A stretch of 64,000 nucleotides of DNA from contig JAUPFP010000001.1 in assembly GCA_036925085.1 (NCBI GenBank), forward strand, positions 16,028,842 through 16,092,841, given 5' to 3'. Under the pieces are notes generated by a model that had not been told where the DNA came from, searched no databases, and saw nothing but the letters and a program-made list of their open reading frames with translations. The translations under genes and the position numbers were made by a program. How positions within the stretch are numbered: the stretch's first letter is position 1; every line of letters begins with the position of its first letter. The stretch is from Brachycybe producta. Its lineage: Eukaryota > Arthropoda > Diplopoda > Playtdesmida > Andrognathidae. Below, piece by piece: positions 30,982-64,000 of this stretch.

Positions 30982-31390
30982 CAGTCCGTCTACCCATGAT
31001 ACGAGAAGCTCTCGGAAACGAACTTTTGACGATCGTCATAGTCGCTTTTGCGGGATACCGTTCAGACTGTCCGATTCGGACTCTTCGTAAAGTGGGTAAA
31101 AAACCTGCATGTGCTTCACTGTTCTCATGTCTGCCGTGCTTTCTATCTTGCATGTGCCTTTAACGAAGAGATCTCGAAAGAGAACTTTTGACGCTTGTCA
31201 TAGTCACTTTCGCAGTTTTCCGTACAAACGATACAATACGGCTCTTCGGGCTTTTCATGAGTGCTTGCGTTTGTGCATCAGTGTTCTTGGATGCATGACT
31301 GGGGGGTATTTGTGCTGGTGTGTTTGCATGTGTGCCTGCTTGCATGTTTTTTCCTGTGATGTCCTGTCCTGTCCCTCTTCGATGTATCTC
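30982..31390 (+). repeat. Downstream repeats of the recombinase element (left of the insertion)
   Basis: CTCG(G)AAA..GAACTTTTGACG..CGTCATAGTC occurs at about 31010 and 31170. GCATGTTTTTTCCTGTGATG and the next 40 bases at 31343-31390 recur at 47872-47920, where the sequence continues without the CACTA-like insertion. Confidence 0.65.
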
Positions 31391-31620
31391 CCCTGCTAGA
31401 AATAATCTGCAGAAACTATAAAAAAAATGTGCAGAATGTCTGCAGACACGTCTGCAGACATTCTGCAAGAATTTGGCACCTCTATTCTACAGTTTTTCTG
31501 TGGAATACATCTGCAGTTTTTCTGTGGAATACTTCTGCAGTTTTTCTGTGGAATAAATTTAATTTTTTTGTGGAATAGTTTTGCAGTTTATCTGTGGAAT
31601 ACATATATGGTATTTTCGTA
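31391..31620. promoter_or_regulatory. Left TIR and subterminal CTGCAG repeat cluster
   Basis: Seven or more CTGCAG/TGCAGA words, including the palindromic TCTGCAGACACGTCTGCAGA, plus CAGTTTTTCTGTGGAATAC repeated four to five times. In CACTA elements such arrays bind transposase; here that role is inferred. Confidence 0.55.
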
Positions 31621-31786
31621 TGAATGTATGTTTCTATGTATGCATGTATTCCATTTGTTTAAAATAAACATTCATAAAGTTCAAAGCTAAAATAATCAAA
31701 AAATAGTTTAATCAAAAAATGAAATCATACAAATGAACTCATTAAAATGACTTAAATTCAATGTAATTCTAAATCAAAACAATCAA

Positions 31787-33074
31787 TCATATTGGTCCTA
31801 TTTTCAAGGCCAGCTTACTTTCAGTATTCAGTTTGGAACGAATGGCTGCTCTTACAATTTGTCGGGTAATATGAAATTTTTGACTGACATGGCTTTCAAT
31901 ATCTTCAATCATTTGTGGATTCATCACTTTTTTTTCGCTTGACTTTTCTTTGATAGCTTTAATCAATCCTGTCGCTAACTGTTCCCTTCCAAATACTATT
32001 ACTAACAGATCCCCAACATATTTTGAGTAGTCACTGGTATGGCATAAACTCAGTTTATTTTGGGAAACTGTAACAAGATTACCAATGGCAATGCTCTGTT
32101 CTTCATTAGCGTTGTCACTGCATTCTTCTGTAACTTTGAGCTTTTTCTTCATTTCGATTCATTTATTTTTTTCTTTGCGATATTTTTCTTTGATGTTCAT
32201 CAATTTCATTTGAAATTCATGAAGTTGTTTTTGTAATTCTTCAATTTCGACCTTTTGTACTATAATCTTCTTGCGAACTTTTCAACAATCATCACATGGA
32301 ATCAAACTTCTAGCAGCTTGACCGTTTGTAATTTCTGCCAAAAGCCCCGTTAGATCCTTTTTAGCAACTGTATTAGATTTCTTCATTGTTTTTTCTACAC
32401 CGGAATTTTCACCTGTAAACCTTGCAGGCAGTTACAAAAATAATCTTATTATAGTTTGTTTCAAAATAAATGTTTATCAGATTTTAAACTTCATTAGATG
32501 TATTGAAGTTATGTAAAATGTACCTAGCTCTTGAACCATCCATCTTTCTTTTCATAGAACTGTCAGCAGACAAAACAATAGGAATGTTGTTATTCACTTC
32601 TTTTTCATTATCTGTGATATCAGTAAGGGTCTTGTTGAGACCCTTCTTGCTGTCTGTAATTAATAAAAAGTATAATTGTATTTTATAATATAATATTATA
32701 TGCAGCATTTTATTATAGCATCATAGAAATTAATTAAAATATAAGAATTAAAGTTAAATTAGATACTATAATCAAAAACAAAAATTAAAGCCAAATAAAT
32801 TATTTATGAGAACAATGATAGAATAATTATATTGAATTAAAGTTTAACTTTACTTTATTCAGTTTAATCTATTATTTTAAATTATGTTTAATATTTAATA
32901 TATTAATTATTCCATATTATTAATTCTTATTTGTATTGCTTATTTAATGAACAAATTAAAATGAATAAATTTATTTTAAGACTACATTTTTTCAAATAAA
33001 CTTTATTTAAATAATCAAGAATGAGTAAAAAAATTAGTTAATATTTGACTTATTTCTTATTTGAATATATTTTG

Positions 33075-33141
<67 letters not shown>

Positions 33142-33400
33142 CCAAACTGTATTATTTTCCCAGGATAAATTCTCTTATCCCAGTTTATTTCTATTTCTTC
33201 TTCTCTGTTCCAGTTTTCAAAACCAACTGCTTTCACTCTCTTTAGTGAATTGGCCACTAAATTAGTTGACTGTACTAATGAAAACTTGTTTTCACAAAAA
33301 AATGCACTAAAAGGTAGAAGTGTCCTGCCATTTTTATCAAAAAATAGGACAAAAGACTCTGAAGAAAGAAAAATGGCCAGATGGTACATATGATACAAAG
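31787..33400 (-). pseudogene. BEN-domain gene carried by the CACTA-like element
   Basis: Minus-strand exons: about 33140-33400, 32524-32653 and 31787-32412, each bounded by AG and/or GT. Exon 1 encodes a small domain (VLFFDKNGRTLLPFSAFF ... INWDKRIYPGKIIQFG) of the kind found before BEN domains. The last exon has a basic coiled coil (IVQKVEIEELQKQLHEFQMK) and then a BEN domain (YVGDLLVIVFGREQLATG ... MNPQMIEDIESHVSQKF, about 31820-32020). BEN domains bind DNA or chromatin. Two in-frame TGA codons lie in the last exon, both possibly decayed CGA or TGG. Exon phases 2-3 do not match perfectly, so a small exon or a shift is missing. It ends about 400 bp from the left TIR, so it is a passenger or accessory gene. 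Confidence 0.7.
33079..33138. repeat. (TA)n microsatellite
   Basis: About 30 TA units directly after the donor site of the first BEN exon on the minus strand. Confidence 0.95.
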
Positions 33401-33605
33401 AAGAAGCACTGTGACCAAATAATAATCAACTAAAACTTTCCATGCTTTCATAAAAATATATATTGTACTCTACTTATGGTTGTTTGTTTATTAGAAGCTG
33501 ACAGCACTGTATTATAATTGAAAAGGGAAAATCCCTACTCTCTTTGTATTTACAAATGGCCTCACTTGTTGCTCTTATAGAAAGTTATATGGTAATATCC
33601 AAAAA
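33401..33605. promoter_or_regulatory. Intergenic region between divergent BEN and transposase-like genes
   Basis: Only about 205 bp separate the two start regions, so a shared bidirectional promoter is likely. No clear TATA box is seen. Confidence 0.35.
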
Positions 33606-33814
33606 ATGGCTGAACAAAGGAATAGACGTAGTGGCAAATACAACAGATTTTTGATACAAAATGAACCTGTTCCAAAAAGGACTCAAATAAGAAGAACTAA
33701 AAGTAAAAAAACAGAGAAAAATTGTATGTAATTTATATTGAGATGTTTTTTTAAAAGCAAGCATGTAATATTTATACTATTAAGTATTACATATTTATAA
33801 ATTAATTAAATAAT

Positions 33815-33850
33815 CCCCTATCGGGTGCCTCCCCAGGTGGCGGATAGGGG
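33815..33850 (+). other. Hairpin at the RTE 5' terminus
   Basis: CCCCTATC (33815-33822) pairs perfectly with GATAGGGG (33843-33850). GCC/GGC inside the loop and CCCG shortly after allow an HDV-ribozyme-like nested fold, known at 5' ends of some RTE and R2 elements. The hairpin is seen; the ribozyme is speculation. Confidence 0.4.
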
Positions 33851-36800
33851 AATGCCCGCCAGATATGGAGGGTACTGAGGGCATAAAATACTCAGGGCAG
33901 ACCAAAACCAAACCACGCCATTGCCGGTCCCCCAGCCCGGGTGCAAAAGTGGAGGGTCGACATCAGGTTGGCAGCCGGTTGTAAAGATTTGCCGAAACAT
34001 ATGATGTTGGTTCGAAATAGTATTCCGAATATGGCTAGGGCGTCCTCCGCCATAAGCGATGCGCAGCTGCAACGCCCGGTGGCGGTGGCAAATTGGCAAT
34101 GGTAACCCCACAGTGGACAGGTGGGGCTAAAGAAGCGAGTCCAGCATCAACAACAAGGAGGTCTTGGAAGTAGCAGTAGAAGTGGAGGTACTAAACTTAG
34201 GTTTGGCACCTGGAATATAGGGAGTTTGACAGGGAAGACTAGGGAGTTATCTAGTGTTCTAAAGGTTAGGAGAGTAAATGTTGCATGTCTGCAGGAGACA
34301 AGATGGAAAGGGAATAAATCCATGGACATTGGGGATGGGTATAAATTAATTTATGCAAGTAGTGAGGAGGGTAGAAATGGAGTGGGAATTGTCCTAGATC
34401 AGGAACTCAGACATAGTGTGGTTGAGGTTAGGCGGATAAATAGTAGGCTGTTAGTAGTAAAGGTAGTTTGGGGTGGCATTGTTATAAATCTAGGTAGTGC
34501 ATATGGCCCCCAGGTTGGATTAGATACAACCAGGAAGCTAGCATTCTGGGAACAGTTTGATGACCTAATGTTGGGCCTGAGTAGGAAGGAATGGGTCATA
34601 ATTGGTGGGGACTTAAACGGACATGTAGGTAGAGGTAGGGAAGGGTATGAAGAGGTACATGGTGGGTGGGGCTATGGAGAGTGAAATAAAGCAGGGGAGA
34701 GTATCCTGGAGGCAGCAGTGGCACATAAGTTAATTTTAGCAAACACACTATTCCAGAAGCGAGAGGAACATTTGATTACTTTAAGAGCAGAGCAGGAGAA
34801 TCTCAGATTGATCTCTTCATGATTCGGAGTGAGGATAGAAACGAGTGCAAGGATTGTAAAGTGATACCGAGTGAAAACTTAGCGGGAAAACATAGGCTAG
34901 TAGTGTTAGACCTAAAACCTAGGGGTGCAAAACAGGTGGTCAGACATAGTGGAGAGACAGCAATTAGGTGGTGGGCATTACCAGACAAGGTGGAATAGTT
35001 TAAGAAAATGGCAGGTAAAATAGCATGGGATTTAGATGGCACTGCAGGAGAGCTGTGGACAAGGGTAGCACAACAGATCCGTCATTGTGGAAACGAGGTA
35101 CTAGGGACAGTACGAGTAGGGGGTCTCGATTAGACAGAGAAACTTGGTGGTGGGATGAGGAGGTACAGATGGCAGTTAAAAAGAAGAAAGATGCTTTCAA
35201 GACTTGGTGGCACGATGGAAGCAGGGAGGCCCAGATAGAATACAAGCGTGCCAAGATAGAGGCCAAACAGCAGGTAGCCTTAGCAAAGCATAAGAAATAT
35301 GCGGACATGTATGCCAAGTTAGGTACCAGAGCAGGAGAAATGGCAGTATATAGAATAGCTAGGGCTCGGGAGAATAAAGGCAGAGATATTGAAAAGGTGG
35401 TGAGTATTAAGGATAATGGGGGCAAAGTATTGTGGGGTAGGGAGCCAGTACGGAACAGGTGGGGGGAATATTTTAGTAAGCTTATGAATGAGGGGGTAGA
35501 GCAGGAGCCTTTCACTGGAAGAAATAATGATAGAGAAGAAGTGGGGCAGGTTAGGGCTGAGGAAATTGTTCAGGCATTGCGAAAAATGAAGCTAGGGAAG
35601 GCTTTAGGGCCAGATGGGATACCAGTAGAGGTGTGGAAGGTCTTGGGGAATGTTGCCATTTCCTGGCTCACAAAGTTATTCAATAGATTGGCTATGGGGG
35701 ATAGAATGCCAGGTGCATGGCGGGACAGCTGGTTAGTGCCTATTTTCAAAGGGAAAGGTGATGTTCAGGAATGTGGGAACTATAGAGGTATTAAATTGAT
35801 GAGTCATACGATGAAGCTTTTGGAGAGAGTAATTGAAGCTCGACTACGGGGTAAAACTGCAATTGGGGGAAGTCAGTTTGGGTTTATGCCAGGAAAATTC
35901 ACAATGCACCCTATTTTTGCCGTAAGGCACGTTATTGAGAAGTTTCGGGCTGCCAAGAAAGAGTTACACATGGTATTTATAGAGATCTAGAGAAAGCCTA
36001 TGACAGAGTACCACGGACGTTATTGTGGGAGGTCTTACAGAAGAAGGGGTGGGTGAGAGTTATATAGATATGGTGAGGGACATGTATAGGGATGCACGGA
36101 CAAGCGTTAAGACTGCCTGGGGGTTCTCTGACAGTTTTCGTGTTATAATTGGTGTGCACCAGGGCTCAGCACTTAGTCCATATCTATTTATTTTGGTCCT
36201 GGATGAGTTACTGGCAGGGGTGAGGCAGGAGGTCCCCTGGTGTATGCTGTTTGCAGATGACATAGTCTTAGTTGGGGAATCCAAATTGGAACTCGAGATA
36301 AGGTTAGAAGAGACTAGGAATGCCTTGGAATCAAAGGGGTTGAAAATAAGTAGGGCAAAAACGGAGGACATGAAATTTCAGTGGGATGGGAAAGAACAGT
36401 TGAATGAGGGGATTAGACTTGGGGACAGTTTAATGCAGCAGGTGCATGACTTCAAATATTTAGGATCTGTGCTGCAAGATAATGGGAGCTTAGACTTAGA
36501 CATCACAAACCGGATAAAAGCAGGTTGGCATAGGCGGAGGCAGGCTAGTGGGGTTTTATGTGACAGGAAGTTACCTATAAAATTGAAGGGAAAGTTTTAT
36601 AGAACAGTAGTCAGACCAGTTATGTTGTATGGGTCAGAATGTTGGGCAATCAAGAAGGTGCATGAGGATAGAATGCAGGTAGCTGAGATGAGAATGCTAA
36701 GGTTTATGAGTGGGGTGACCAGAAGGGATAGGATCAGAAATGATTTTATTAGGGGTAGTGTACGGGTAACAAATATAGTAGAAAATATGCAGGAAAATAG

Positions 36801-37084
36801 GCTGCGGTGGTTTGGGCATGTCCTCAGGAGTGGAGAAGATGGGCTGCTGAGACAGGCAATGAACTTAGACCTGGGAATAAAACGGGGTAGAGGAAGACCC
36901 AAGCAAACCTCTGATGTGGTAGTAAAACGGGATATGGTGGCATGTGGGGTCACTGGGGGCTTGGTGCAAAATCGGAACGAGTGGAGAGTTAGAACCAGCA
37001 AGGCCGACCCTGCTGCTTGCGGGAAAAGGTACAGAAAATGATGATGACGATATGTATGTATATGTATATGTATATATATGTATG
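33815..37084 (+). mobile_element. RTE-clade LINE, near full length, inactivated
   Basis: The 5' end (33815) begins with a hairpin. The single ORF region starts at 34121. Endonuclease: FGTWNIGSLTGK, CLQETRWKG and WVIIGGDLNGHVG up to 34680 (stop at 34682). RT: AEEIVQALRKMKLGKALGPD (35555-35615), GNYRGIKLMSH, then a shift near 35988 before KAYDRVPR, HQGSALSPYLF (36155-36190) and FADD at 36250-36261. The C-terminal block KAGWHRRRQASGVLCDRKLP ... VRPVMLYGSECWAIKK is typical of RTE. The last ORF ends at 37041, followed by a GATGATGATGACGA/TATG tail. At least three breaks. It sits in intron 1 of the transposase-like gene. Confidence 0.9.
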
Positions 37085-37597
37085 TGTGACGGCCCAGTAT
37101 GGCTCCTTTGTGAGCAAAACTAAATTCCCATTGTCGTCTGCTAGGCACCTGTAAATTGGTTGCCAGGCAGACGACAAAATGGCCAGCAAGGGTCACTGTG
37201 CTCCCCCAGGTGGAGCAGCCTCGGGGTGATATATAATGGCGGCAGCCATTATTATCTGGGCAGTTTAGTGAAACCCTTGATGCTGTGTGCAAGGATTAAG
37301 TGCTCCATCATTTTTCAACAGGTGGCCAACATGGCCACTATTCTTCACTTGTTTCCTTTGTGGATGGAGGTCAATGACCTCCTCTCCTGGCTGAATTAGC
37401 CACTAGATTCATCTATTTAATCAGTGAGTGTTTTGTTTATTTTTTTGAATAAATCTATTATTTATTTTCACTCTCTCTACACTGTGTCCGTGTCCTAATT
37501 ATTTCTTATAACACTGGGGAAGTTACCGCGGAGAGGGTGGGGGTTGCCAGTGGGTTTTCACCGTCACCGTCACCGTCCTGTCCGGCATTTCTATCGT
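37085..37597 (+). repeat. 5' LTR of G2 (truncated)
   Basis: Matches 42054-42577 closely; the last ~250 bp of the LTR are missing and the sequence jumps into integrase. Hairpin GGAGGTCA-A-TGACCTCC at 37366-37382. AATAAA near 37447. Confidence 0.85.
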
Positions 37598-38598
37598 CCT
37601 GTCGGTGTATGGCACACCGACTACTTTCATCTCGGATCGTGGATCCCAGTTCTGTAGCAAGGTTTTGTGAAAGTTCCGGGAGTGCTATAATATAGCACAA
37701 CACTTCACGACGGCGTAACATCCGCAAGCTAATGGGCTTGCGGAGCATACGAACAAGACTGTGATGGAAACCATCAAGCGTTACCTTGATCCCCTCAAGC
37801 ACCAACGTGATTGGTGGGAGAAATTGCGGCCCGCCGTGTGGGCCTACAACACTGCGGTGCAGAAGAGCACGGAAGTGTCTACGTACCAATTGTTGTTTGG
37901 GCGTGAGCCAAGGTTGGGGATTGATAATCTCCTTCCTAACGGTCTAGTCCGCGACTTGCCTGACCAGCAAGCCGTGGAGGAGCGTGCTCGTCAAAATTTT
38001 GGCGCCCGCTCAAGCCAGACAGAAGAGCCGGTATGACGCCGGCCGGGTGGAGCCACCCCTGTACCAGCCTGGTAAAAAGGTCTGGATAAAGGATATGGCT
38101 GGGAAGCTCGGTCAAGCCAAGAAGTGGAATTTCGCTTACAAGGCTGTACTGGGTACGGTGGTCTGGCAGGTTTCCGGCCTGGTCTACGAGGTAGAATTCG
38201 TAGATGGGTATGGTCGGAAGGTGCGGGACCGGTTTCTTGTGGATAGCTTGAAGCCGTACATTCCCACATGTGGGGTTCGTGAGGAAGATGGCCTTGGTAG
38301 CTCTGAAACCTCTTCGAACTCTGAAGGGTCCAGTGATGCTGAGTCTGGGTCAGCTGGAAGTGAGAGGAGAGATGATGTCCCTCCAGGACCTTCTGGCCAG
38401 CCTAGCTTGGTGGTGGAGTCAACTGACTCTGAGGCAGAGGAAGCACCTCAGCCCCGGTATTACCTCCGTCCGAGGAAACCCAGGACTTTTGAGGTTATGC
38501 AAGCTTCCTCTGGAGCTCCAATAAGCACCAGGGAGGTGCAGGGACTTGAAGTCCCTGTCCTGGTGGGAGAGAGCAGGTCATTCCCTGGTATGGGATGA
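37598..38598 (+). pseudogene. Gypsy integrase core and C-terminal domain (G2)
   Basis: PTTFISDRGSQFCS (about 37615-37660) holds the second catalytic Asp. ANGLAEHTNKTVMETIKRYL (about 37730-37790) holds the Glu. YNTAVQKSTEVSTYQLLFGR follows. A shift near 38010 leads to RQKSRYDAGRVEPPLYQPGK and a GPY/F-like end (YEVEFVDGYGRK ... VDSLKPYI), then an acidic Ser-rich tail to a stop at 38598. A stop at about 37669 is also present. The zinc-binding N-terminus and first Asp are deleted. The enzyme would insert element cDNA into chromosomes. Confidence 0.85.
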
Positions 38599-39591
38599 GG
38601 ACCTGAACCGGGGAAATAAGGATTGGGAGCACAGTGACCCCTGGACTGGTCACCGCCTGTCTGTCACGGACAAATGGCGGTTGTCCAGGGGGAACTGGGT
38701 GGAGAAATAAACAATTCCCAACTGCAAACTCAAAGAGGAGTCTGCAGACGTTGTTTCTCTAGAAGATTTTTTTCCTGAGTCTTTCCATAGGGATTCATGC
38801 CGTGTATCTGCCCCTAAAAAGGCAGACGACGGTAGAATCTCTATGGTAACAGCAATGGAGGCGGCTAATGTTGTTTTAGCCGCCAAGCCGCCGCTGTTAT
38901 CCATCTCTCCGGTGAAATTAGCGGCTAAACACCATCTTGTTTTTAAATTAAAACTTGGACGGTCGTTTGGCGCTAATTATCGAAAGAAACGTTTATTTCA
39001 CCGAAGAAACGGCAAAGATTCAGGACAGTTGGATGCCACAAAGGGGAATTTCCTTTTCCTGCCCTGTGGCAGTATTATTTTATTGCTTTTGGGTGTGTCA
39101 AGCGGTCATTGACCGCTTGAACACGTGGTTTTGGTGGAGGCGTCACCGTCATGGTTTTGACGGTGATTCTACCACTGACGGGGCCGTGAATAACACGGTG
39201 TTTTACTGCCCGGACACCGTGGAACTTGGTGGTGACCAAGTTCTACGAAGTTTGGACGGTGAAATGGTGTTTTTACACGGTTCTGTCCGGGAAACCACCA
39301 TGGAGAACGGTTTCGACCGTGAACAACGGTGTTCTAACAGACGGAAAGTGGTTTTTCACGGTAGTGGTTCGTGTAAACCACTTCCCAATGAACCTGAATT
39401 GTCGGTGCCGGTATTGGACGGTCCAAACACTTGTTTGGCCGGTTCCGACCGTGCGGATACCATTGGGGACGGCTTTGGCCATGTACCACGGTGCCTGCCC
39501 GGCCGGAAACATTTTTTTGCGGTTTTGGACCATGGAAATTGTTTCCCACCGTAATAGATCGAATGCTGATGGTTTTTTTTTATCTTTTTCA
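38599..39591 (+). other. Spacer with ACGGT/CCGT-rich leader-like sequence (G2)
   Basis: Non-coding by appearance. 39100-39590 is full of ACGGT/ACCGT words and pairs such as CGGTCATTGACCG, as in G1 and the G3 leader. It ends TTTTTTTATCTTTTTCAG|GTAGCC, a strong 3' splice-site-like sequence at 39591. Confidence 0.5.
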
Positions 39592-41980
39592 GGTAGCCAC
39601 GGTGGAGAAGGACGAAACTGGCGGGGGTTTCAGCGGTTCCTCCTCCCTCAGCTCTTTGCATCCGGGTGATGCGGAGCTGTTAGAGTCGGATGCCGCTTGC
39701 TCCCCGGATTCTTTGGGTAGGGCCATAGCTGACTTGGCCGACGGCGGACCTTTGGGTCTGCTATTGGTGGAGGATGCTGTGGTGACCCAGCTGTCCCCTC
39801 GGACCCCTCTGTATTATGGGTCCGTGTGGAGACGGTTGACACCGCCTCCCACCGTGGGATCTCTGAGGGCGACCATTAAGTTGGGAGCCATGAAGATCCC
39901 AGAGGTTGGTGAGCCGGTGCGGGCCAGCACGCCCGTCGAAGAGGTGGCCACTGGTTTGGCAGCTACCTCCTTGGCGAAGTGTGATCCTCCGGCGGACCAA
40001 AGCTGGCTAGAATTGGCTAGCCTGGCTGAGGAAAGCAGGGATGCCTCCTTTGGAGGAACCCTGGTCATAGACACGGAGGCGGAGATGGACACCAAGGAAG
40101 ATGGTGTGGTGCCCTTCTCCAGGCGTTGGCGAGGCCAACGGATCCTCTCTTCAGAGGAATCTTCGGAGTCTGAAGGGAGAGGATCAGGCTCCCTGGGTAA
40201 ACGGTCTGTGACCGGATTCCAGGAGGGTACTCCAGCCCGGAAGGGCAGCCAAATTCCGGTCGACCCTGTTGAGGAGACGGAAGTGGCCTGTCTGGAAAGG
40301 CAGAATGAAGCCGTGCAGTACCAAAAGGCGTCAGGTGGTTTCCTGGCGTCAGATGGGAAACGCTACTTTGTTGGGGAGTACCCTACCCAGCAGTTCAAAT
40401 CGGACAAATCTAAATCCAAAAAGAAGTCCGGAGCTGCTCGGTACATCGCCAGGATGAAAGCCCTCGCGAAGAAGGAGGCACAGTTTTAGAGGACGATGGC
40501 TGCCTTGGCGAAGTTTATGCCGGCAGTTGGTCTTCTCCCTGTGTCACTAGCTCATCCTAAGGGAGCTGCTGGTGCTGCCTGGCCTGTTGGTCAGCCTCCC
40601 GTTTCGGGTTCAGCCGAAGCGGAGGCTGGCTGTTCCGGCTGGCAGTCTGCAACTCCCAAGAGGGACCGAAGAGCAGAAAAGAAGGCCAGTCAGCCTTCTC
40701 CTCCCGCTCCGAGGAAGAGCACTCATGCCAGTGGTGGTGGTGGTCAGGGACAGAAACGTCCCCGCCCTTTCACCCCAACTTTGGCCAGTAATCCGGTGGG
40801 AAAGAAGGCCAAGGCTTCTCGTGGAGGTCCGGCCGGCTTTCCCAACAGAAAGTGGAGCCAGTAGGACCGCTTGCGGTACCACCAGGCACAAGCGGCCAGA
40901 TGTGCTGCCCTTGTCCTGCAGGACAAGAAGGCTGCACGCCGACGAGAGTTTGAGCTCCAGACCTCTCAGTTTCCGCCCCTGCGGGAAGCTGATGCCCGGG
41001 ATCAGCTCAGTACAGGGGAACCTCCCGTCAGAGTTGGTGCCACTCCTATTCCGAGTGCCACAACGGCCGCTGGCCAACAGCGTATCGCCCAAAGGGGGCG
41101 GTACAAACTGCCAAGGCACCTCACCAGGGTGCGGCAGGGACGCTTCGTGGCAACACGAGCATCCTTGACCGTCGGTTTGGCTACGGGAGCTAGTTCAAAG
41201 ACTAGTACAGCTTCGGCTGGAAAGTCTGCGACTAGCAAGTCTGGTCAATCGAAGGGGGCTAACCACCCTGCTAAGACTGACCGGCCTGGTAAGTCTGTGA
41301 GCTTCAGTGCATCCAGCTCACAGCCCGGTTAACCTTCTTCTCATGAGAGGAAAGAAAAGAAAAAGAAAAAGAAGAAAAAGAAGGGCAAGAAGGCCCGTCA
41401 TGAGAAGGAGGGAGGTCCAAAGACTTCCACCTGTGGGTCCCAGGAGACTGGTGGAAGTATCGGGACGGAGGAGGAGGAGTCCCGACACGGTGCGACCGTG
41501 TCGGCCGGGAGCCAACCGGACCATACCCATCAAAGTAGGACGGCGCAGACGGATGGAAGGTCAATGCGAGATGTTGTTCTCGGTACACCTTCCTCCTTCC
41601 CGAAGGTGGTCACGGTACCGAACTTGACGATTCGGTTGGTGGGAACTCTCCACCGGGTCAGCTCACCATTACCTAGCGGTGGGGGCAGCCCGGCGGGAAA
41701 AAGTGACGTTCCTGCCAAACGTGGTCCCGTGCCTTCCATAGGAAGGACACCCTTCTCTCCGGGTCCCGATGATGGGGTCTTTGCGGCCCTAGGACCAGAA
41801 GAAAGAGCCAGGTCTCCCGCACCCGTGGTGCGGAGCCTTCGTATTCAGAAGGAGAGGTCTTTCTGAATAACCGGCTTGGTCTGTGGCAGGACCAGCCGGG
41901 AATGAAGGGGTACCAATACCACGGGTATTATCGCCTGGGAGAGCCACTCCCAGCCCGTTGGTACTCAGACTGAAACTGAG
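39592..41980 (+). pseudogene. ORF-X of G2 (accessory ORF between integrase and 3' LTR)
   Basis: The coding-like region begins after the acceptor-like site with VATVEKDETGGGFSG and SLHPGDAELLES. Conserved blocks shared with G1 follow: SGGFLASDGKRYFVGEYPT (about 40330-40390), KKKSGAARYIARMKALAKKE (about 40420-40480), SGGGGQGQKRPRPFTP, LSTGEPPV...PSATTAAGQ (about 41010-41080), a lysine run near 41350-41390, and NNRLGLWQDQPGM...QYHGYYRLGEPLP (about 41865-41950). Frame changes near 40486, 40864, 41332 and 41866 break it. The predicted product would be about 800 residues, basic and low-complexity, with no signal peptide or membrane helix seen. Function unknown; nucleic-acid binding is a guess from the lysine-rich parts. 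Confidence 0.7.
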
Positions 41981-42053
41981 TGGGGGTCATGGACGCAATC
42001 CTTGCTGGCTCGATTGACCTGATCCTGGGACGGATCAGGGAAGTTTAGAGGAT

Positions 42054-42826
42054 TGTGACGACCCAGTTTTGCTCCTTTGTGAGCAAAACTAAATTCCTAT
42101 TGTCGTCTGCTAGGCACCTGTAAATTGGTTGCCAGGCAGATGACAAAATGGCCAGCAAGGGTCACTGTCCTCCCCCAGGGGGAGCAGCCTGGGGGTGATA
42201 TATAATGGCGGCGGCCATTATTATCTGGGCAGTGTAGTGAAACCCTTGATGCTGTGTGCAAGGATTAAGTGCTCCAACATCTTTCAACAGGTGGCCAGCA
42301 TGGCCACCATTCTTCACTTGTTTCCTTTGTGGATGGAGGTCAATGACCTCCTCTCCTGGCTGAATTAGCCAGGAGATTCATCTATTTAATCAGTGAGTGT
42401 TTTGTTTATTCTTTTGAATAAATCTATTATTTATTTTCACTCTCTCTACACTGTGTCCGTGTCCTAGTTATTTCTTATAATACTGGGGAAGTTACCGCGG
42501 GGAAGGTGGGGGTTGCCGGTGGGTTTTCACCGTCACCGTCACCGTCCTGTCCGGCATGTCTATCGTCTTGTCGGCCGGTGCTTCGCGCACGGTTTATCCA
42601 CGGTAAGATTCATCGGGGATTTGCCGTGGATTACTCGTCCTGTTCGGCGGTCTTTCGTCAGTCGACGTGTGGCGAGGGAGTTGACCTCTAACCGGCAATA
42701 CCCGTGTACACGGACGGGTACAAGAGGAGGGCTGGCCAGCATTTCGACCCATCCCAACGGAGGTCAGGTGGCAGTAAGTAAGCGAAATTTACCGTGGGCA
42801 TTGTAACGACCAGTCGGGTTGTTACA
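42054..42826 (+). repeat. 3' LTR of G2
   Basis: 773 bp, TGTGACGACC...GGTTGTTACA. 5'-proximal hairpin GTTTTGCTC/GAGCAAAAC at 42066-42074/42081-42089. TATATAATGG near 42200 is a likely TATA box and AATAAATC near 42417 a poly(A) signal. Confidence 0.9.
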
Positions 42827-42926
42827 TATGTGTATATGTATATATATATACATGTATATGTATGTATATGTATATGTACATGTATATGTAAATGTATGTG
42901 TATGTATATGTATTTGTATATGTATT

Positions 42927-42987
<61 letters not shown>

Positions 42988-43063
42988 ATATGTATATGTA
43001 TGTATATGTATGCATATATATGTATATGTATGTATATATATGTATATCATATGTATTTGTATG

Positions 43064-43130
<67 letters not shown>

Positions 43131-43140
43131 AGCTATATAT
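42827..43140. repeat. TATG/TA compound microsatellite
   Basis: Continuation of the RTE tail array beyond G2, expanded to about 310 bp. All long ORFs here only translate TATATG/TATATA repeats. Confidence 0.95.
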
Positions 43141-43528
43141 ATATATTGACTATACATGTGTAATAATTAAAAGATTTTAATATTAATTAAAATGAATTAA
43201 CATAAAAAATAATTCAAAGTAACATTTCATTTTTGTAAAGTATTCCAGTATTTTGTTGTGCACTTCCAATAAATTTTCTCAAGGCACTGATGTAGTCAAT
43301 TATCCTGAAAGTGTTGAAACTGTATGTGAAAGTTTTGATGCACATGGATTCAAATGCACTTCAGACGAAACTAACCATATAACATCAGTGCAGATTGAAA
43401 CAAATGGTAAACATAGCTGCAGTATTGTAAATAAATTATTTTACTTATTTATCTTTGACAAGAACTTTTATTTTCGAATCAATTAGACTATATGGATTGT
43501 GAAAACCAGGATATTATTGATGAAGAAA

Positions 43529-44328
43529 TGTGGCAACCTGGTCTGCTCCAATTTTATTTTTGATGGAGCAGACAATTTTCCCTATGGTGGTCTGCCTGAC
43601 AGCTACAGTAGGCTGTTGGGACAGACGCCATTTTGGTGCCAGCAGACCTCTCACCATGAAATCTATGGGTGAGAGGTCAGAAGTGACCTCTGTCCCCTCC
43701 AGGTGGAGTTGCCTGGACATTTCCTGTGGCCTAGTCAACCACAGGATCGGGGCAGTTGGTTGTAGACCAGGATTATGACTAGACCTGTGGGTGGAGGTCT
43801 GATTGACCTCCACTGTCCAGCATCTATTGCATCTTCTTCGTTTTGCCTTGGAAATTAGGCCCTTGGTTGTGAATATCATTCTTGGCTGGAGGGAACTTCC
43901 CAGCCAAGTATCTGTATATAATCACCATTGCCATCAATCATCGTAAGTGTGAATAAATACACTGCTTTTATCTTCACTTACCTGTGTCGTGTCATTTCTT
44001 GGGGAGTTACCGCGAGGGGGTGGGTTTCTGGTTTGGGGAAACTCCACCGTCTTGCTCCGACTTGTTTCGGCCGGTGCTCGTGTCGGCTCGCGGTAGAACA
44101 CCGGTTCTACCGCGAGCCGACACGAGCATATTCTCGGCGTGGCGACGTGGTTTTTCGTCGTGTCCGTCATGGGTGGCTCCTGGAGCCGACACATCCCAAG
44201 GGGAACATCGTGTGGGAGACGGCTACGGGTACGGTCCCGTCCCCGTAAGGAGCCGGTTGCGGTAAGTTTTACGTCCGTTTTGGGGTTTTGCTTACCGGGG
44301 TATTGTAACGGTCCGGCGGGACATTACA
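43529..44328 (+). repeat. 5' LTR of Gypsy-type element G3
   Basis: 800 bp, TGTGGCAACCTGG...GGGACATTACA, close to the solo LTR at 1120-1906. Hairpins at 43791-43799/43805-43813 and 44076-44099/44104-44127 (24 perfect pairs, ACCG loop). AATAAA near 43951. Confidence 0.9.
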
Positions 44329-44329
44329 A

Positions 44330-44346
44330 TTGGTGGAGGCACCGGG
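44330..44346 (+). promoter_or_regulatory. Probable primer-binding site of G3
   Basis: TTGGTGGAGGCACCGGG begins one base after the LTR. TGG is the expected start of a tRNA-primed PBS. I cannot name the tRNA. Confidence 0.5.
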
Positions 44347-44437
44347 TACCTGTACCCCGCCTCTCGCACGGTGATTTACCGTGAATTCGACCGTTTAGTC
44401 GGTCAAATTACCGTGCGGTGCGAGTACGCCACTGGGC

Positions 44438-44942
44438 GCGGACTTTGGTCCGTGGGACAGCGGCGGAAACCACCGTTTCACCATCGATTTACCGTTGTTT
44501 ACCGTGGGGAACGGACTTTGGTCCGTTGTACCGTGGTGAACGGTAAATCTACCGTCGTTTACCGTATTTTTACCGTTGATTGACCGTGGGGAACAGACTC
44601 CGGCCCGTTGCACCGTGGTTAACGGTAAATTTACCGTCGAAGTACCGTGGGGCACGGACTACGGTCCGTGGTACCGTGGTTTTCGGTGGTGTTCGGTATT
44701 TTACCGCAAGTACACCGTGGTGTACGGACTCTTGTCCGTTGGGCCGCGGTAGAAAGTGGTAAAAAGTCTTTTGCCGAGAAGTACACCGTGGGAAACGAAC
44801 TCTTGTCCGTTAGATCGCGGTAGAAACCGGTAAGGTTCGACTCTGACCGTTCCTTACCGTGGGACACGGACTTCTGTCCGCGATACTGCGGTCTCGCACG
44901 GTTCTATTCGTTCGGTATGGTAATTTACGGACTTTTGTCCGT
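44438..44942 (+). repeat. Array of eight hairpins in the G3 leader
   Basis: ACGGAC-nnnn-GTCCGT or close variants start at 44438, 44511, 44593, 44654, 44724, 44795, 44866 and 44927 (spacing 61-82 bp), each in a CCGTGG(GG/TG) context and separated by TTTACCGT words. The array lies between PBS and gag, where packaging or translation signals are found in related elements. Confidence 0.8.
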
Positions 44943-45019
44943 GGGATTACCGTTTTCGACGGTGGAAACTCGAGATCTGGTGGCTTTGTCCAGATTTTAC
45001 CGTTCGTTTACGGTGAAAA

Positions 45020-46671
45020 ATGGAGTCAGCCCCAAAAGTACCGACGGGAGGTCGGGAACTTGGTACAGATGCGGGTTTGGAGTTACGCGGCCACGTAGTC
45101 GACCGTCCCCTTGTGGGGGCGGAAGGCGGGGATCCTCTGGAAACAGAGGGACCCAGCGGTAGCGTAGACGGGGATCTCCCGGAGGAATGGGTCACGGTGC
45201 AGAAACGCAGCCGTGACATCCGTCCGGGAGAATACCCGTTAGAAGACAGTGGGTCAGATGGTGATCTCACCGGGGAGGACGAGCGGCCACGGCCGCTTGT
45301 CCAAGTTTCCACCGTCGCCCGTCCGGTTGGACGTGGCGATCAGCCCCGTAGGGACATGGTGGAAATCCCGGACGAGACCGCACGTGAAGGCCGGGCCTTT
45401 TTGGCCGGGCTAAACGAGCAGCAACTCGTTGAGATTGCCTACGGGATAGATGTCCTTCGCTTGGAACGGCGACTGTCCCGGTCCACGGTTGAGCCGAGGG
45501 TGGCACCTCGATTTTCACTGTCGCCCGTGCGTGAAGGCGCACGGGGAGATGAACCACAGGTACTTCCCTGGTTGGTACCTCCGCGGGTAGCACCCAGGCC
45601 ATCTCCTCGGGGACTTGGCCGGGGAGCTCCTGCTGTTCCCCGGACAGCAGCCGAGGGTTCAGATGATGATACCCTCGGAAGCTGAGTCCGTGTCTGATGT
45701 TTCGGGAAACCGGAGGAGGCCGCCTCGCAGGGTTAGCGCCGCTGCTTGGACGCCCGCTCCAGCGGTTTCAGCGGAGGTTCAGGCGTTCGGGTTCTTTAAC
45801 CCGGTCCACTCTTTTGCTTGTTACGACGGCAGAGAGGACTTGACGCCTTTTCTCCGAAGCGAAAGCCCGAGCTCAGCGCTGGACGGACGAGTCCCGATGC
45901 AGTTTCTTTACGTTTCTGCTGGACGGTCCGGCGGAAAAGTACTACGTCACGTTGGTGGAAACTCTTCCAGACCTGACCTGGACTGAGCTGAAGGATGCTA
46001 TGCGTAGCCGCTTCAGCACAAGCAACCAGGCTCGCCTCTGTTTTGGCGAATTCGAGTCCATAAAATAGGGGGCTACCGAGTCTGTACAGGCATTCTACTG
46101 GCGGTTCTTGGAACTGTCCGACCGAGTGTCTCCGGGCAAAGACGAGAGCTGCAGGCTCATTCGCTTCAAACGGAAACTCCAGACGGCCATCACTGATCAG
46201 TTGATCGGTTGCAAGGCCGGTACGGTAGAAGCATATGCCCGAAAGGCATGGCTGGTAGAGGCCGATTTGCTTCTAGTAGGTAAACTACCTAGCCGTACAC
46301 GAGGGGTTCCTCAGGACCGGGCTAACGCTCCGTCCTCCGGAACCACGGCTAGCTCTGGGAGCTCTGCCAAGGCTTCATCTTCGAGCCAAACGGGTGCGAA
46401 GGCTGCTGCACCGTCCAAGTCGGACAAAGCAGGAGCCAAGACCGGAGGCAAGAAGAAGAAGACGGCAGGCTCTGGTGGAGGTCAGCCGGCGGCAACGCCT
46501 CGTAGTACGGACCGTACAGGAGATTCACTCCGGCGATTAGGTCCTTGTTTCGGGTGTAACCAAATGGGTCACCTGAGGAAGGATTGTCCGAAGGCTGCGG
46601 CCAAAGGACAGGTTGCCAGAGTGGTGTGTGTGGAAAATTCTGTTCAGAAATGGCACAAGGTTTCAAACTAA
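45020..46671 (+). pseudogene. Gypsy gag of G3 (capsid and CCHC knuckle), 3'-truncated
   Basis: Starts MESAPKVPTGGRELG, followed by a Pro/Arg-rich N-terminus to 45683. It continues in another frame with VQAFGFFNPVHSFACYDGRE (about 45780-45840), then the capsid segment LPDLTWTELKDAMRSRFSTS (about 45970-46025), a TAG near 46067, YWRFLELSDRVSPGKDE and a Lys/Ser-rich linker. It ends with the zinc knuckle CFGCNQMGHLRKDC (about 46549-46590), which fits C-x2-C-x4-H-x4-C. Gag forms the particle and binds RNA. Sequence similarity stops just after the knuckle, around 46640-46670, where transposase-like sequence resumes. Protease, pol and the 3' LTR of G3 are therefore missing. Confidence 0.8.
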
Positions 46672-47153
46672 CCAAAAAATGTATAAATGTGAATAACTCC
46701 GAAATGTTGGGTATTGGAATTGTTGTGCATCTATCACAAATTGAAGCAAATGAAGTTCAAAAATTGTTTCCAAATTTTAGTATTTTATCAAAATGTTATT
46801 TATATAAGCGAATGGTAAACAATGACAACCTTTTAACAACAACAAATTACTCGGCTAATTTCAGGAAAGTTGACTGTTTTGTTAATGCTTCTGATAAATA
46901 TGTTGAAATTACAAAATTACTAATTATTTTTAATGAGGTAATAATAATTGGGAAAGTGCTTAAGGTGTCAGAATACAAAAAAAAAGATAAAGACATAGGA
47001 AAATTGTGTTTGGGTATCATTATTGTTGAAAACAGCTTTATTAATGATATCATTGCCTTCCGTGCCTCTAAAATCACAAAAAAATATATATCTACCAAAA
47101 TTTCTGAACAATTGTATTTAATTCCATTACCAAACAAATATGAAAGAAATTAA

Positions 47154-47539
47154 TTGTTACCATTTACATTTTAAAAAATGCCAGTTATGTAATCATAATT
47201 CACTATTAAATAAATTTTGTAATACTGGAATTGAAGTGAACAAGTTTTTTTGGTAAACAGAAGCATTTGTACATTTGTAAATGTGCATAAATGTAATCAT
47301 AGTACATATTTTATAGATAAAGAAAATAATCAGTTCCTAAATTATTTCACTTATAGTCATAAGTGACTGCTTTCTGCAGTACTCTTCAGAAACTCCGCAA
47401 GCAAACTGGAGATAAAAATAAATCTAAATTAATGATAATGTCTTAACTGCAGTTACCCTGCAGAATTTCTGCATTTCTGCAAAAGCTCCTGAAAAAATGC
47501 AGAATCCTGTAGAAATTCTGCAGCCGATTTCTAGCAGGG
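47154..47539. promoter_or_regulatory. 3' region and right subterminal repeats of the CACTA-like element
   Basis: After the stop codon the region is AT-rich. From 47380 it carries CTGCAG, TTCTGCA and TGCAGAA words at least seven times, ending in the right TIR (47516-47539). Confidence 0.55.
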
Positions 47540-48400
47540 TCCACCTTGTCGTGATGAGAAGACTTTAGCCTGTTTTATATAAAAGCCGCTAAGAGAGATA
47601 CAATTCATGTGTGGCTGTAGTGACCAAAACAGCAAAATGCGGTTCTTATGCGGATCTTGGGATTTCGAAAGCCGCATGCTACTCATTTCATTGTGCTATT
47701 GCACGACTGTGAAGTAGTAGGACAATAAGACTCTACCGCATGCTACTCAATGCTTCGTGCTATTGCATGACAGTGAAGTAGCAGAACAAAAAGACTAAGT
47801 CCGAAAAAAAGCTGTAATGACCGAAATACAGCAAAGTGTTTTCTTATGCGGTTCTTGGCTCTTCGAAATCCGCATGTTTTTTCCTGTGATGTCCTGTCCT
47901 GTCCATCTTCAATGTATCTCCACCTTGTCGTGGTGAAGAGGCTCGAGCCTGTTTTATATAAAGGCCACTAAGAGAGATACAATTCATATGTGGTGGTTAT
48001 TGGGTATATTTGTAAACTGCCACGCTACTACTCTCATCGTGCTATTGCACGACCGTGAAGTAGCAGGACTAAGATAAACTAAGTCCTAAATAAATGTTGT
48101 ACTGACCGATACAGCATAATGCAGTCTTTGGGTCTTCGATAACTGCATGCTACTCATGGCATCGTGCTATTGCACGATTGTGATGTAGCAGGACTAAAAT
48201 AAACTAAGTCCTAAATAAATGTTGTACTGACGAATAAGCCTAACACCGAGAGAACAGGTATGATTTTCGGTGATCGATGGAGTTACGACAGGGTAAACCT
48301 CTGGCGTACCTATGACTTTATTGCTCCAGGTGTTTGAATGAGAGACATGCAGTTGTTTGTATCACTTTCTGGCAACTTCCTTTCCTTACTCGTCGAGTCT
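47540..48400 (+). repeat. Downstream repeats of the recombinase element (right of the insertion)
   Basis: Units of about 379 bp share ATGTATCTCCACCTTGTCGT, GCCTGTTTTATATAAA and CTAAGAGAGATACAATTCAT (47546 and 47921). Inside, (A)TCGTGCTATTGCACGA-type hairpins recur near 47690, 47757, 48037 and 48163. The end (48275-48390) resembles 27575-27680. Confidence 0.7.
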
Positions 48401-61833: not shown

Positions 61834-64000
61834 TCAAAATACATTTTCTGTAACTAGTAGAAGATCCAAAACCTCCTTTGAGATACGAATCAAACTGCCA
61901 TATTTATATTCTTCCAGGTTAACTAAAACATCAATACCAATTATTCCAGTATCATTGACTGTCTTTACAGAACTTAAAGAAGCATTACAAAGAACATTGC
62001 GTTTTTCCAGCTTTCGAATAACATAACCTCCTATTTTGTACAAGACAGGTATTTCTAACTCCGCAATAACATTACCTCCTTGGAAATCTTTTATAAGAGA
62101 ATAGATGCGATCAGATTCAGTGTTATTGACTTTCATATCGTTTTTCACTGCAAGAAAATCTGCCAAAAATTCCCGGTCATCCGTATCATAACTAGCATTT
62201 CTGGATGATTTCAATAATTGTGCAACAGATATAAGTTTTAATGCTCTCTTGAACTGCAAAGGTGTTGGAGTGGGAGTCCTAATTCTGACACATGAAAATA
62301 GTGGCTAAATCGAGATGTTAAAATGAACTCATACTTTTTGCTTTCTAAAAGAACAGCTTGAATCTGGAGTATGGTGGTTGTTGATAAGATAACTGCAGAC
62401 TGCCAAGGTTTCCAACGACCAACATCTAAGTTTTGAAATAAATCAACTACAAACTTTAAAAACTCAACAACCTCTAAATGCTTAGTCTTGTTTAAGTTAC
62501 TCACAGCTAGTACTGGACTTCTGGATGTCATTAGATCATACCACCTCCGTATATGTCCAAAACTAAGCGGTTGTAAGAGCTTCATTTTCTAATTCACCAG
62601 TCTTAACTAAGTAATGCAATGCACTGCAGACATCTGAATGTATTATTTTCATTGCAATAGAGACCTTCATTTTATCAAAATGATTTGGTTCAAGATGTTC
62701 TTTTGTCAACCCATTAGCTAATTTTAATTCTTTAGTCTTATCGTACTCAACAAGTTCACGTAGGTATTGGAAACAAACCTCATCAGTACGCAATGCATAC
62801 TTCTCCACATAACATTTGGGAATCTTTATTACTTCAGAAGAAATTATTGCATTTATAATATTTTTTATATAATGTGAGGAACATCTGACATAAAAAAAGT
62901 TCCTGGTCTACATTTACAGGGTTTTTGATGTGGTTTACTAGTTTTGCATGCCTATTGCATGTAATGCCAAATGATTTCCACATGGCCCTGTTCATAGCAC
63001 CCATGTCATTGGTAATACATAAAACATTTAGGCCAGCAGATTTTGTTAAACTGATAATTTCAGTGATGATGGGCTTCATTTTAGAACCATCAGTTGAATT
63101 GCCAGTAAAATAATATCCAACTATCTGTTTCCACCGAGTACTAATGCCTGTAAGCATAAAAACTAATGCATGTGTTCCAGTTCCGTCATGAGCAGGGAAG
63201 TCTACATTGCCTACAAACCCTCCACTGCCAGCATCATATTCATAACCTTTCTTTAGTGCCATCTCATCAACAGTTAACACACATTCATGCTCTTGTTCAC
63301 AAAAATTGCCAACCTTAAATTTGAGATTTTCATACACATCATACAATATGCCACTTTCAAAATTTGAATTCTGCAGTCTTTTTTGTAATGTCCTCACTGC
63401 TGGTAATGGATAACCTTTTTCCAACAAGGCCTTGTATCCATTTGTGCCACAAGAAAACCAAAGTTGCAGACCTTTAATGGATTCAGATTGCCATTCTAAT
63501 CTCTTACGTGCCGATTTCCGAATATGGTTAATTTGATCAGTTTTTAGAAACCTGGCCATGTTGTGTGACTGCTCACGAAGTTCTTTCTTAGCTTGACAGA
63601 GTTTTGTTTGAGCCAGCTTATTTACTTTCTTTAATTGAATGATCTGCCTTTGAAGTTTGTTCACATAATCATGGTCTACTTCTGAACTGCTCTTTCCATT
63701 TTCCAGATCTTGTGAAAGGCAAATAAATTCTACAAATAACAAAAGAAAATACTGTAGAATGCAGTTCAAAGAGGCTGCATAAATAGTACTGTTTACCTGA
63801 GCATTCTGTGTTCCCAACAGTTGAATTGATGTCCATCTCATCAGTTGCTTTCTGTGATGACCAGCCATATACGTGGTCGTGTTGAACATTCTTCTTTTTC
63901 GATGGCTCATTCTCAATGGCATTTTAACATTTCCTCTTTAAAGATGATTTTCTTTGTTTGGCTTGTTTTATGTGCTGAAATATTGTTGGGATGGAAGTAC
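61834..64000 (-). pseudogene. P-element/THAP9-like transposase, 5' end beyond window
   Basis: Exon 1 (63797-64000, partial) opens with SIPTIF at about 63980-63995, the end of a THAP zinc-finger domain, then a basic linker, an in-frame TAA at 63924-63926 and QHDHVYGWSSQ. A 67-bp intron (63730-63796) follows, joining in phase. Exon 2 has a coiled coil (VNKLQRQIIQLKKVNKLAQT), then KRLEWQSESIKGLQLWFSCG, VLTVDEMALKKGYEYD, GTHALVFMLTG and FTGNSTDG, the P-element catalytic region. Downstream come EHLEPNHFDKMKVSIAMKII, RRWYDLMTSRSP and PLQFKRALKLISVAQ, reached through at least four frameshifts (one at a 7-A run, 62892-62898). YVIRKLEKRNVLC lies near the end. THAP9 and P transposases are GTP-dependent DNA transposases. 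Inactive here. Confidence 0.88.

Follow-up and report, generated by a model that had tools for sequence, protein, structure and literature searches.

A decayed EnSpm/CMC-type DNA transposon of the millipede Brachycybe producta with a divergent gene for a BEN-type protein

The window, a stretch of 64,000 nucleotides of the millipede Brachycybe producta (positions 16028842-16092841 of contig JAUPFP010000001.1, here C1, in a genome of 295.3 Mb and 442 contigs), contains at 31391-47539 what is, judged from its sequence, an old and decayed copy of a cut-and-paste DNA transposon with a second gene for a BEN-type protein. We consider it fairly probable that this is a two-gene element of the EnSpm/CMC type in which the BEN protein takes the role of TNPA in the plant En/Spm transposon. 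A preliminary description of the window had proposed a CACTA-like transposon whose BEN-domain gene points towards the left end and whose transposase-like gene points towards the right end, and this layout recurs in the family of the window copy (F1) as well as in families of this genome that have diverged from it.

The boundaries and the insertion site of the window copy were reread and agree with that description. Its two 24-bp terminal inverted repeats (TIRs), left CCCTGCTAGAAATAATCTGCAGAA and right CCCTGCTAGAAATCGGCTGCAGAA (reverse complement), are identical at 21 of 24 positions, and TC is present on both flanks. A TCC duplication with asymmetric ends would be equally compatible with this copy alone; the duplication is taken as 2 bp because the remaining copies are compatible only with 2 bp. 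The empty paralogous site is a repeat at 47872-47993 that is uninterrupted, lacks the element and has a single TC at the insertion point, matching the left flank at 96% identity over 50 nt and the right flank at 88% over 75 nt. The copy itself is damaged: nested retroelement and simple-repeat sequence makes up about 12 kb of it, BEN exon 3 contains two in-frame stops, and the frame of BEN exon 1 is broken by a length change of 2 nt (192 nt here, 190 in the F1 copy at C1:18292458). The transposase core is missing, and its place is occupied by a truncated retroelement of the long terminal repeat (LTR) type; since this retroelement replaces the core, the right-hand disruption is best described as an insertion with a deletion and not as a clean nested insertion. 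The features of the window copy are the following, with the strand given where there is one.

31389..31390: left duplicate of the target site, TC (flanks read)
31391..31414, plus: left TIR, CCCTGCTAGAAATAATCTGCAGAA (end comparison, genome pattern search)
31405..31600: CTGCAG and CTGTGG motifs of the left subterminal region, arrayed in tandem units of about 24 bp, CTGCAGTTTTTCTGTGGAATA (motif count)
31801..32431, minus: BEN exon 3, coiled coil and BEN domain (located by means of the C26 copy, in which this frame is open); the span takes in a few bases ahead of the splice site and the frame continues to a stop at 31787
32282-32284 and 32159-32161, minus: in-frame stops in BEN exon 3 (translation)
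32524..32653, minus: BEN exon 2 (mapped to the C1:18292458 copy)
33140..33331, minus: BEN exon 1, N-terminal domain, Tudor-like by the predicted fold of an F2 relative (mapped)
33332..33605: spacer of 274 bp between both start codons, a candidate bidirectional promoter
33606..33723, plus: transposase exon 1, basic N-terminus (mapped)
33820..37045, plus: nested non-LTR retroelement with endonuclease and reverse transcriptase, limits approximate
37085..42823: nested LTR-type retroelement sequence, limits approximate
42824..43130: microsatellite of the TA/TATG type
43284..43406, plus: transposase exon 2, acidic (mapped)
43487..43530, plus: initial 44 of the 90 nt of transposase exon 3 (mapped)
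43531..46628, plus: truncated LTR-type retroelement with a gag zinc knuckle, standing where the remainder of exon 3 and the initial 1721 nt of exon 4 would be
46629..47153, plus: final 525 nt of transposase exon 4 (mapped)
47280..47539: right subterminal region with CTGCAG-type motifs (motif count)
47516..47539, minus: right TIR (end comparison, genome pattern search)
47540..47541: right duplicate of the target site, TC (flanks read)
47872..47993, plus: empty paralogous site (repeat comparison)

Direct repeats of 300 bp at 37085 and 42054 (to 42353), 95% identical and 4969 bp apart, are probably the LTRs of the nested LTR-type retroelement.

The rightward gene is preserved in the C1:18292458 copy, where it comprises four exons with GT-AG introns and is open over 858 codons. 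What the window copy retains, namely exons 1 and 2, half of exon 3 from its start and the terminal 525 nt of exon 4, is 93-100% identical to it. A search for a Transposase_21-type domain, suggested there as a check, gave a Pfam match in the long exon of this copy above the cut-off (E-value 3.3e-11; 43.2 bits against 28.6). In an alignment with 13 homologues chosen from 103 listed, residues D200, D288, C307, C310 and H520 are invariant and H516 and E540 nearly so, so that C(2)C and H(3-4)H motifs (C307/C310, H516/H520) lie between the second D and the E (E540) of a DDE transposase. Such a signature has been described in EnSpm, Mirage, Chapaev and Transib (PMC12730594). At least 103 homologues of this transposase are found among the matches listed (at least 7989 candidates scored), the best with 44% identity, and those named include sea urchins, soft coral, fishes, ants, wasps, ticks, spiders and others. 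Identity to the aligned homologues is 31-44% for 12 of the 13 and 23% for the one from a rotifer; two homologues (P0001 and P0002) start with a basic N-terminus resembling transposase exon 1.

The leftward gene has three exons on the opposite strand and starts 273 bp from the transposase start in the C1:18292458 copy. Its exon 3 is frameshifted there and open over 212 codons in the C26 copy, in which exon 1 is broken. The exon 3 product consists of a coiled coil and a BEN domain at the protein end. The BEN identity claimed from the window is borne out by profile and fold comparisons: the Pfam match is weak in F1 (E 0.002 to 0.015, under the curated cut-off, with 0.015 for the window exon), and PF10523 is matched by all four family members, the F1 member under the cut-off and the best, from another family, with E 1.5e-4. 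A profile of the four members matches the crystal structures 4ix7 and 7yul (Insensitive and BEND6) with E 4.6e-6 for 4ix7 and 9.3e-6 for the other. Furthermore, a model of the domain (mean predicted local distance difference test score, pLDDT, 70) matches 4ix7 by fold (E 1.4e-4, template modelling score normalised by the target 0.70), and each of the ten top-ranking structures is a BEN domain bound to DNA. With regard to exon 1, its product is a domain of about 65 residues in which V..W..YP..I..FGG is invariant near the end (five aligned rows). A model of this domain from an F2 relative (mean pLDDT 76) is similar to the hybrid Tudor domains found in KDM4 and ARID4, a predicted likeness that is taken as a lead only.

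The F1 family comprises at least five copies, found alike by DNA searches with the left and the right end: the window copy, C1:18292458-18298401, C1:13547047-13550942, C1:18559667-18565182 and C26:286806-299001. Their duplications, read by eye, are TC, TT, none, AC and AT, respectively. The C26 copy lies inside the same kind of non-LTR element as that nested in the window copy, and this provides a second empty site. The preliminary description had asked whether both genes recur together between the same TIRs, and the BEN end is present in every copy found that retains the transposase end, namely five of five in F1 and two of two in F2 (lower bounds). The F2 end searches gave these two copies, each of which has a full transposase end and a BEN end, as well as one further BEN end (L044) without a full transposase end and short end pieces elsewhere. 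TIR copies lacking the BEN gene had been named as evidence that would count against the pairing, and the search for them yielded short derivatives that have neither gene. Allowing at most two mismatches, the TIR pattern has 31 matches in the genome and none for a reversed control; the eight exact matches all fall within the five F1 copies. Three short TIR pairs, of 209 to 893 bp, are too short for the transposase and none was matched in the BEN search, so they are read as non-autonomous derivatives. Two of the three, at L051 (C6) and L053 (C91), are an identical insertion with identical flanks in opposite orientation, and represent a duplicated or unmerged haplotype segment.

Searching the genome with the BEN exon revealed at least 16 loci, the five F1 copies and 11 diverged ones, and 10-kb stretches around all 11 were examined for a transposase. 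A head-to-head transposase stands beside the BEN gene at six of them (L040, L041, L043, L044, L045 and L047), representing four further families: F2 (L040, L043, L044), F3 (L041, L042), F4 (L045, L046) and F5 (L047, L048). The two other loci are a short BEN-region match to F2 and nothing more (L049) and a broken BEN match (L050). Identity between families is about 35-65% for BEN, reaching 78% for the short piece at L044, and 32-71% for the transposase. The family ends, CCCTGCTAGAAAT in F1, CCCAGCTGGAAAT in F2, CCCAGCTAGAAAT in F3 and CCCAACCAGAAAT in F4, have related TIRs, and the duplications are GA (L043), TT (L045) and AA (L041), with none at L040. F5 is the most diverged family, and its homology begins in a TGTTCTGA-like repeat region. 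Its recurrence in several diverged families gives the gene pair the look of a functional unit, not of a coincidence.

The two genes have also diverged along the same lines. Unrooted trees of BEN and transposase from nine copies agree in the order of the families: F2 groups with F3, F4 comes next, and F5 and F1 follow. The family splits have supports of at least 0.85; the order within F1 differs between both trees. The identities of BEN and transposase are correlated (r 0.92, 53 pairs), a value dominated by within-family pairs and not used as proof. Between F2 and F3, BEN is constrained, with a ratio of nonsynonymous to synonymous rates (dN/dS) of 0.095 over 191 codons, at proportions of nonsynonymous and synonymous differences (pN, pS) of 0.21 and 0.73 and a dS of 2.6 that is near saturation; the transposase gives 0.30 (pN 0.20, pS 0.48; 690 codons). 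For F2 against F4, BEN has pN 0.28 and a saturated pS of 0.84 (118 codons), and the transposase gives 0.23 (652 codons).

As to classification, the CACTA-like nature proposed earlier stands in the wider sense of EnSpm/CMC and falls in the strict one. A 2-bp duplication is seen by eye at 10 of the 12 insertions with both ends read (the misses being the C1:13547047 copy and L040, and L051 and L053 having the same flanks), within the range of 2 to 5 bp given for EnSpm/CMC (CMCT) elements (PMC12730594). The termini of that group are described as 5'-CA..TG-3' "in most cases" (PMC12730594), whereas 17 of 18 ends in F1 to F4 start with CC and one F1 end reads CACTGC; since the source speaks of most cases, such ends are no bar to this clade. 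The strict plant definition requires a TIR starting with CACTA and a 3-bp duplication (PMC4158355), both of which are absent here, and the reiterated subterminal motifs of such elements are present, with the BEN gene as a candidate for their second, motif-binding protein. CCC..GGG termini with a 2-bp duplication thus point to an element of the EnSpm/CMC type and not to CACTA in the strict sense.

Several known systems share parts of this arrangement. Plant En/Spm, Tam1 and Tgmt* likewise have a tnp2-type transposase, short TIRs, reiterated subterminal motifs and a second element-encoded protein, which as TNPA or TNP1 binds those motifs (PMC2613891). In En/Spm, however, TNPA and TNPD arise from alternatively spliced transcripts, whereas the BEN protein has its own divergent gene, and the plant elements make 3-bp duplications, unlike the 2 bp between CCC..GGG ends seen here. 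The EnSpm-type transposases of animals (sea urchins, soft coral, fish, ants, ticks, spiders) have the same catalytic and C(2)C/H(3)H residues and, to our knowledge, no BEN partner. In fungi, EnSpm and Plavaka elements that carry a TET/JBP gene also combine a CMC-type element with an accessory DNA or chromatin gene (PMC12730594). That gene is a dioxygenase, in contrast to BEN. The VANDAL elements, whose transposase is Mutator-like, are plant elements with a factor, VANC, unrelated to BEN; like the BEN protein as proposed here, VANC is encoded by the element and acts, with sequence specificity, on tandem non-coding repeats of that element (PMC10398659), the target of BEN being a putative one. 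Insensitive, Elba1/Bsg25A and BEND6 have the BEN fold and bind DNA, but are encoded by non-mobile host genes. The preliminary description had regarded the layout as possibly undescribed, and no description of a BEN-transposase pairing was found in the literature, judged largely by titles and abstracts, with subscription journals mostly outside the scope and Repbase itself not covered.

The subterminal regions suggest what the BEN protein might do. Motifs were counted in the 260 bp at each end and in the sequence between. CTGYRG occurs 13 times at the left and 6 times at the right end of the C1:18292458 copy against twice across the intervening 5.4 kb, and in 1000 base-shuffled versions of these ends the count never exceeded 3; strict CTGCAG occurs 8, 5 and 1 times, respectively. 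Elsewhere the left, right and middle counts of CTGYRG are 6/4/4 and 4/2/8 in F2, 2/5/3 in F3 and 4/4/1 in F4. The left-end motifs are arranged in tandem units, and CTGCAG is palindromic, unlike CTGTGG. BEN domains bind DNA, and the BEN protein Insensitive binds as a dimer to a palindromic site. The paired BEN proteins of Elba depend on BEN for DNA binding (PMC3510454). In En/Spm, TNPA binds subterminal repeats and is required together with TNPD, and TNPA and TNP1 have little similarity despite the same role (PMC2613891). The En/Spm model needs a transposase and a subterminal-repeat protein, and such proteins are dissimilar between elements. The simplest reading puts the BEN protein in that role here, and a TNPA-like role fits the motifs. 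On this reading, the rightward gene encodes the DDE transposase, which would excise the element and reinsert it with a 2-bp duplication, and the leftward gene, starting about 270 bp off, encodes a protein in which a putative Tudor-like domain at the N-terminus is followed by a coiled coil and a BEN domain. This protein would dimerise, bind the CTGCAG-type motifs clustered within both ends and so pair the ends for the transposase, and might also regulate the shared promoter, both as TNPA does in plant En/Spm. The Tudor-like domain could add a chromatin function comparable to that of the VANC proteins.

A number of observations weigh against this TNPA-like assignment. The transposase could just as well be what recognises the CTGCAG motifs; none of the five F1 copies has both genes open; five of the 11 diverged BEN loci (L042, L046, L048, L049 and L050) have no transposase in the 10-kb stretch; and F5 ends were not found at L047 and L048, where the CCC..GAAAT form does not appear. 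Moreover, BEN relatives from other genomes are few: protein searches gave four, of which two belong to a single spider species, against the 103 transposase homologues listed, so that the pairing may be limited to a small group. The closest named outside BEN protein is from the spider Oedothorax gibbosus; among IMG/VR viral contigs no relative was confirmed, none of the pattern matches (306 for BEN, 3 for the transposase) passing tblastn. Finally, dN/dS is higher within F1 (BEN 0.78, 1.38, 2.57 and 0.95; transposase 0.26, 0.90, 0.59 and 0.40) and within F2 (BEN 0.50 and 0.49; transposase 0.78, with an L044 transposase pair without synonymous change). We read the high within-family values as decay that follows insertion, and the values between and within families together as the mark of a gene that is probably needed for spread and decays after landing.

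With regard to other explanations, it is possible, if unlikely, that the BEN protein serves mainly to act on chromatin or counter silencing at the promoter and ends of the element, in the manner of VANC and with no direct part in cutting. That BEN is a mere passenger, taken up from the host on a single occasion and kept without use, seems very improbable: transposons do capture host genes and BEN domains are common in animal host proteins, but the same layout in five families, the dN/dS of about 0.1 between F2 and F3 and the shared family order of the trees speak against it. There is equally little to recommend a repressor that limits the copy number of the element, or an insulator for its promoter. 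BEN proteins are reportedly repressors, and the copy number is low (at least five F1 copies), but low copy number has many possible causes; fly BEN proteins also act as boundary factors (PMC3510454). Chance nesting of two unrelated overlapping elements, suggested by the several nested repeats of the window copy, is rejected as next to impossible because the layout recurs in five F1 copies and six diverged loci.

If the TNPA-like reading is correct, BEN domains would also live as transposon proteins, which bears on the origin of the BEN chromatin factors of animals, and animals would gain a case of element-encoded chromatin control. The second proteins of plant CACTA elements vary by element and are hard to classify, whereas the domain found here has known structures in DNA complexes, through which a second-protein role becomes testable. 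More speculatively, and with considerable doubt, there may be an animal EnSpm-type lineage whose own Tudor-like and BEN chromatin protein predates the family split, pairs the ends and opens silenced copies, as an animal counterpart of TNPA and VANC and a possible source of BEN genes elsewhere in animals.

The window as a whole has 101 open reading frames of at least 110 amino acids, of which 35 were covered by the Pfam scan. Outside the element, a frame of 367 amino acids at 62837-63937 (minus strand) contains a TNP-like RNase H domain (PF21787, E 2e-31) and belongs to another DNA transposase, presumably P-element-like, and a reverse transcriptase domain at 7280-8149 (plus strand; PF00078, E 7.6e-12) marks a further retroelement. 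In the mitochondrial contig C442, COX1, COX2 and ATP6 lie on the same strand with ND1 reversed ahead of them (the names besides COX1 being our own reading), an arrangement that we regard as arthropod-like, and a tRNA scan beside COX1 found none. COX1 matches outside C442, in large contigs (G000, C1:12697416-12698753 and C17:3332011-4029047) are likely nuclear copies of mitochondrial DNA.

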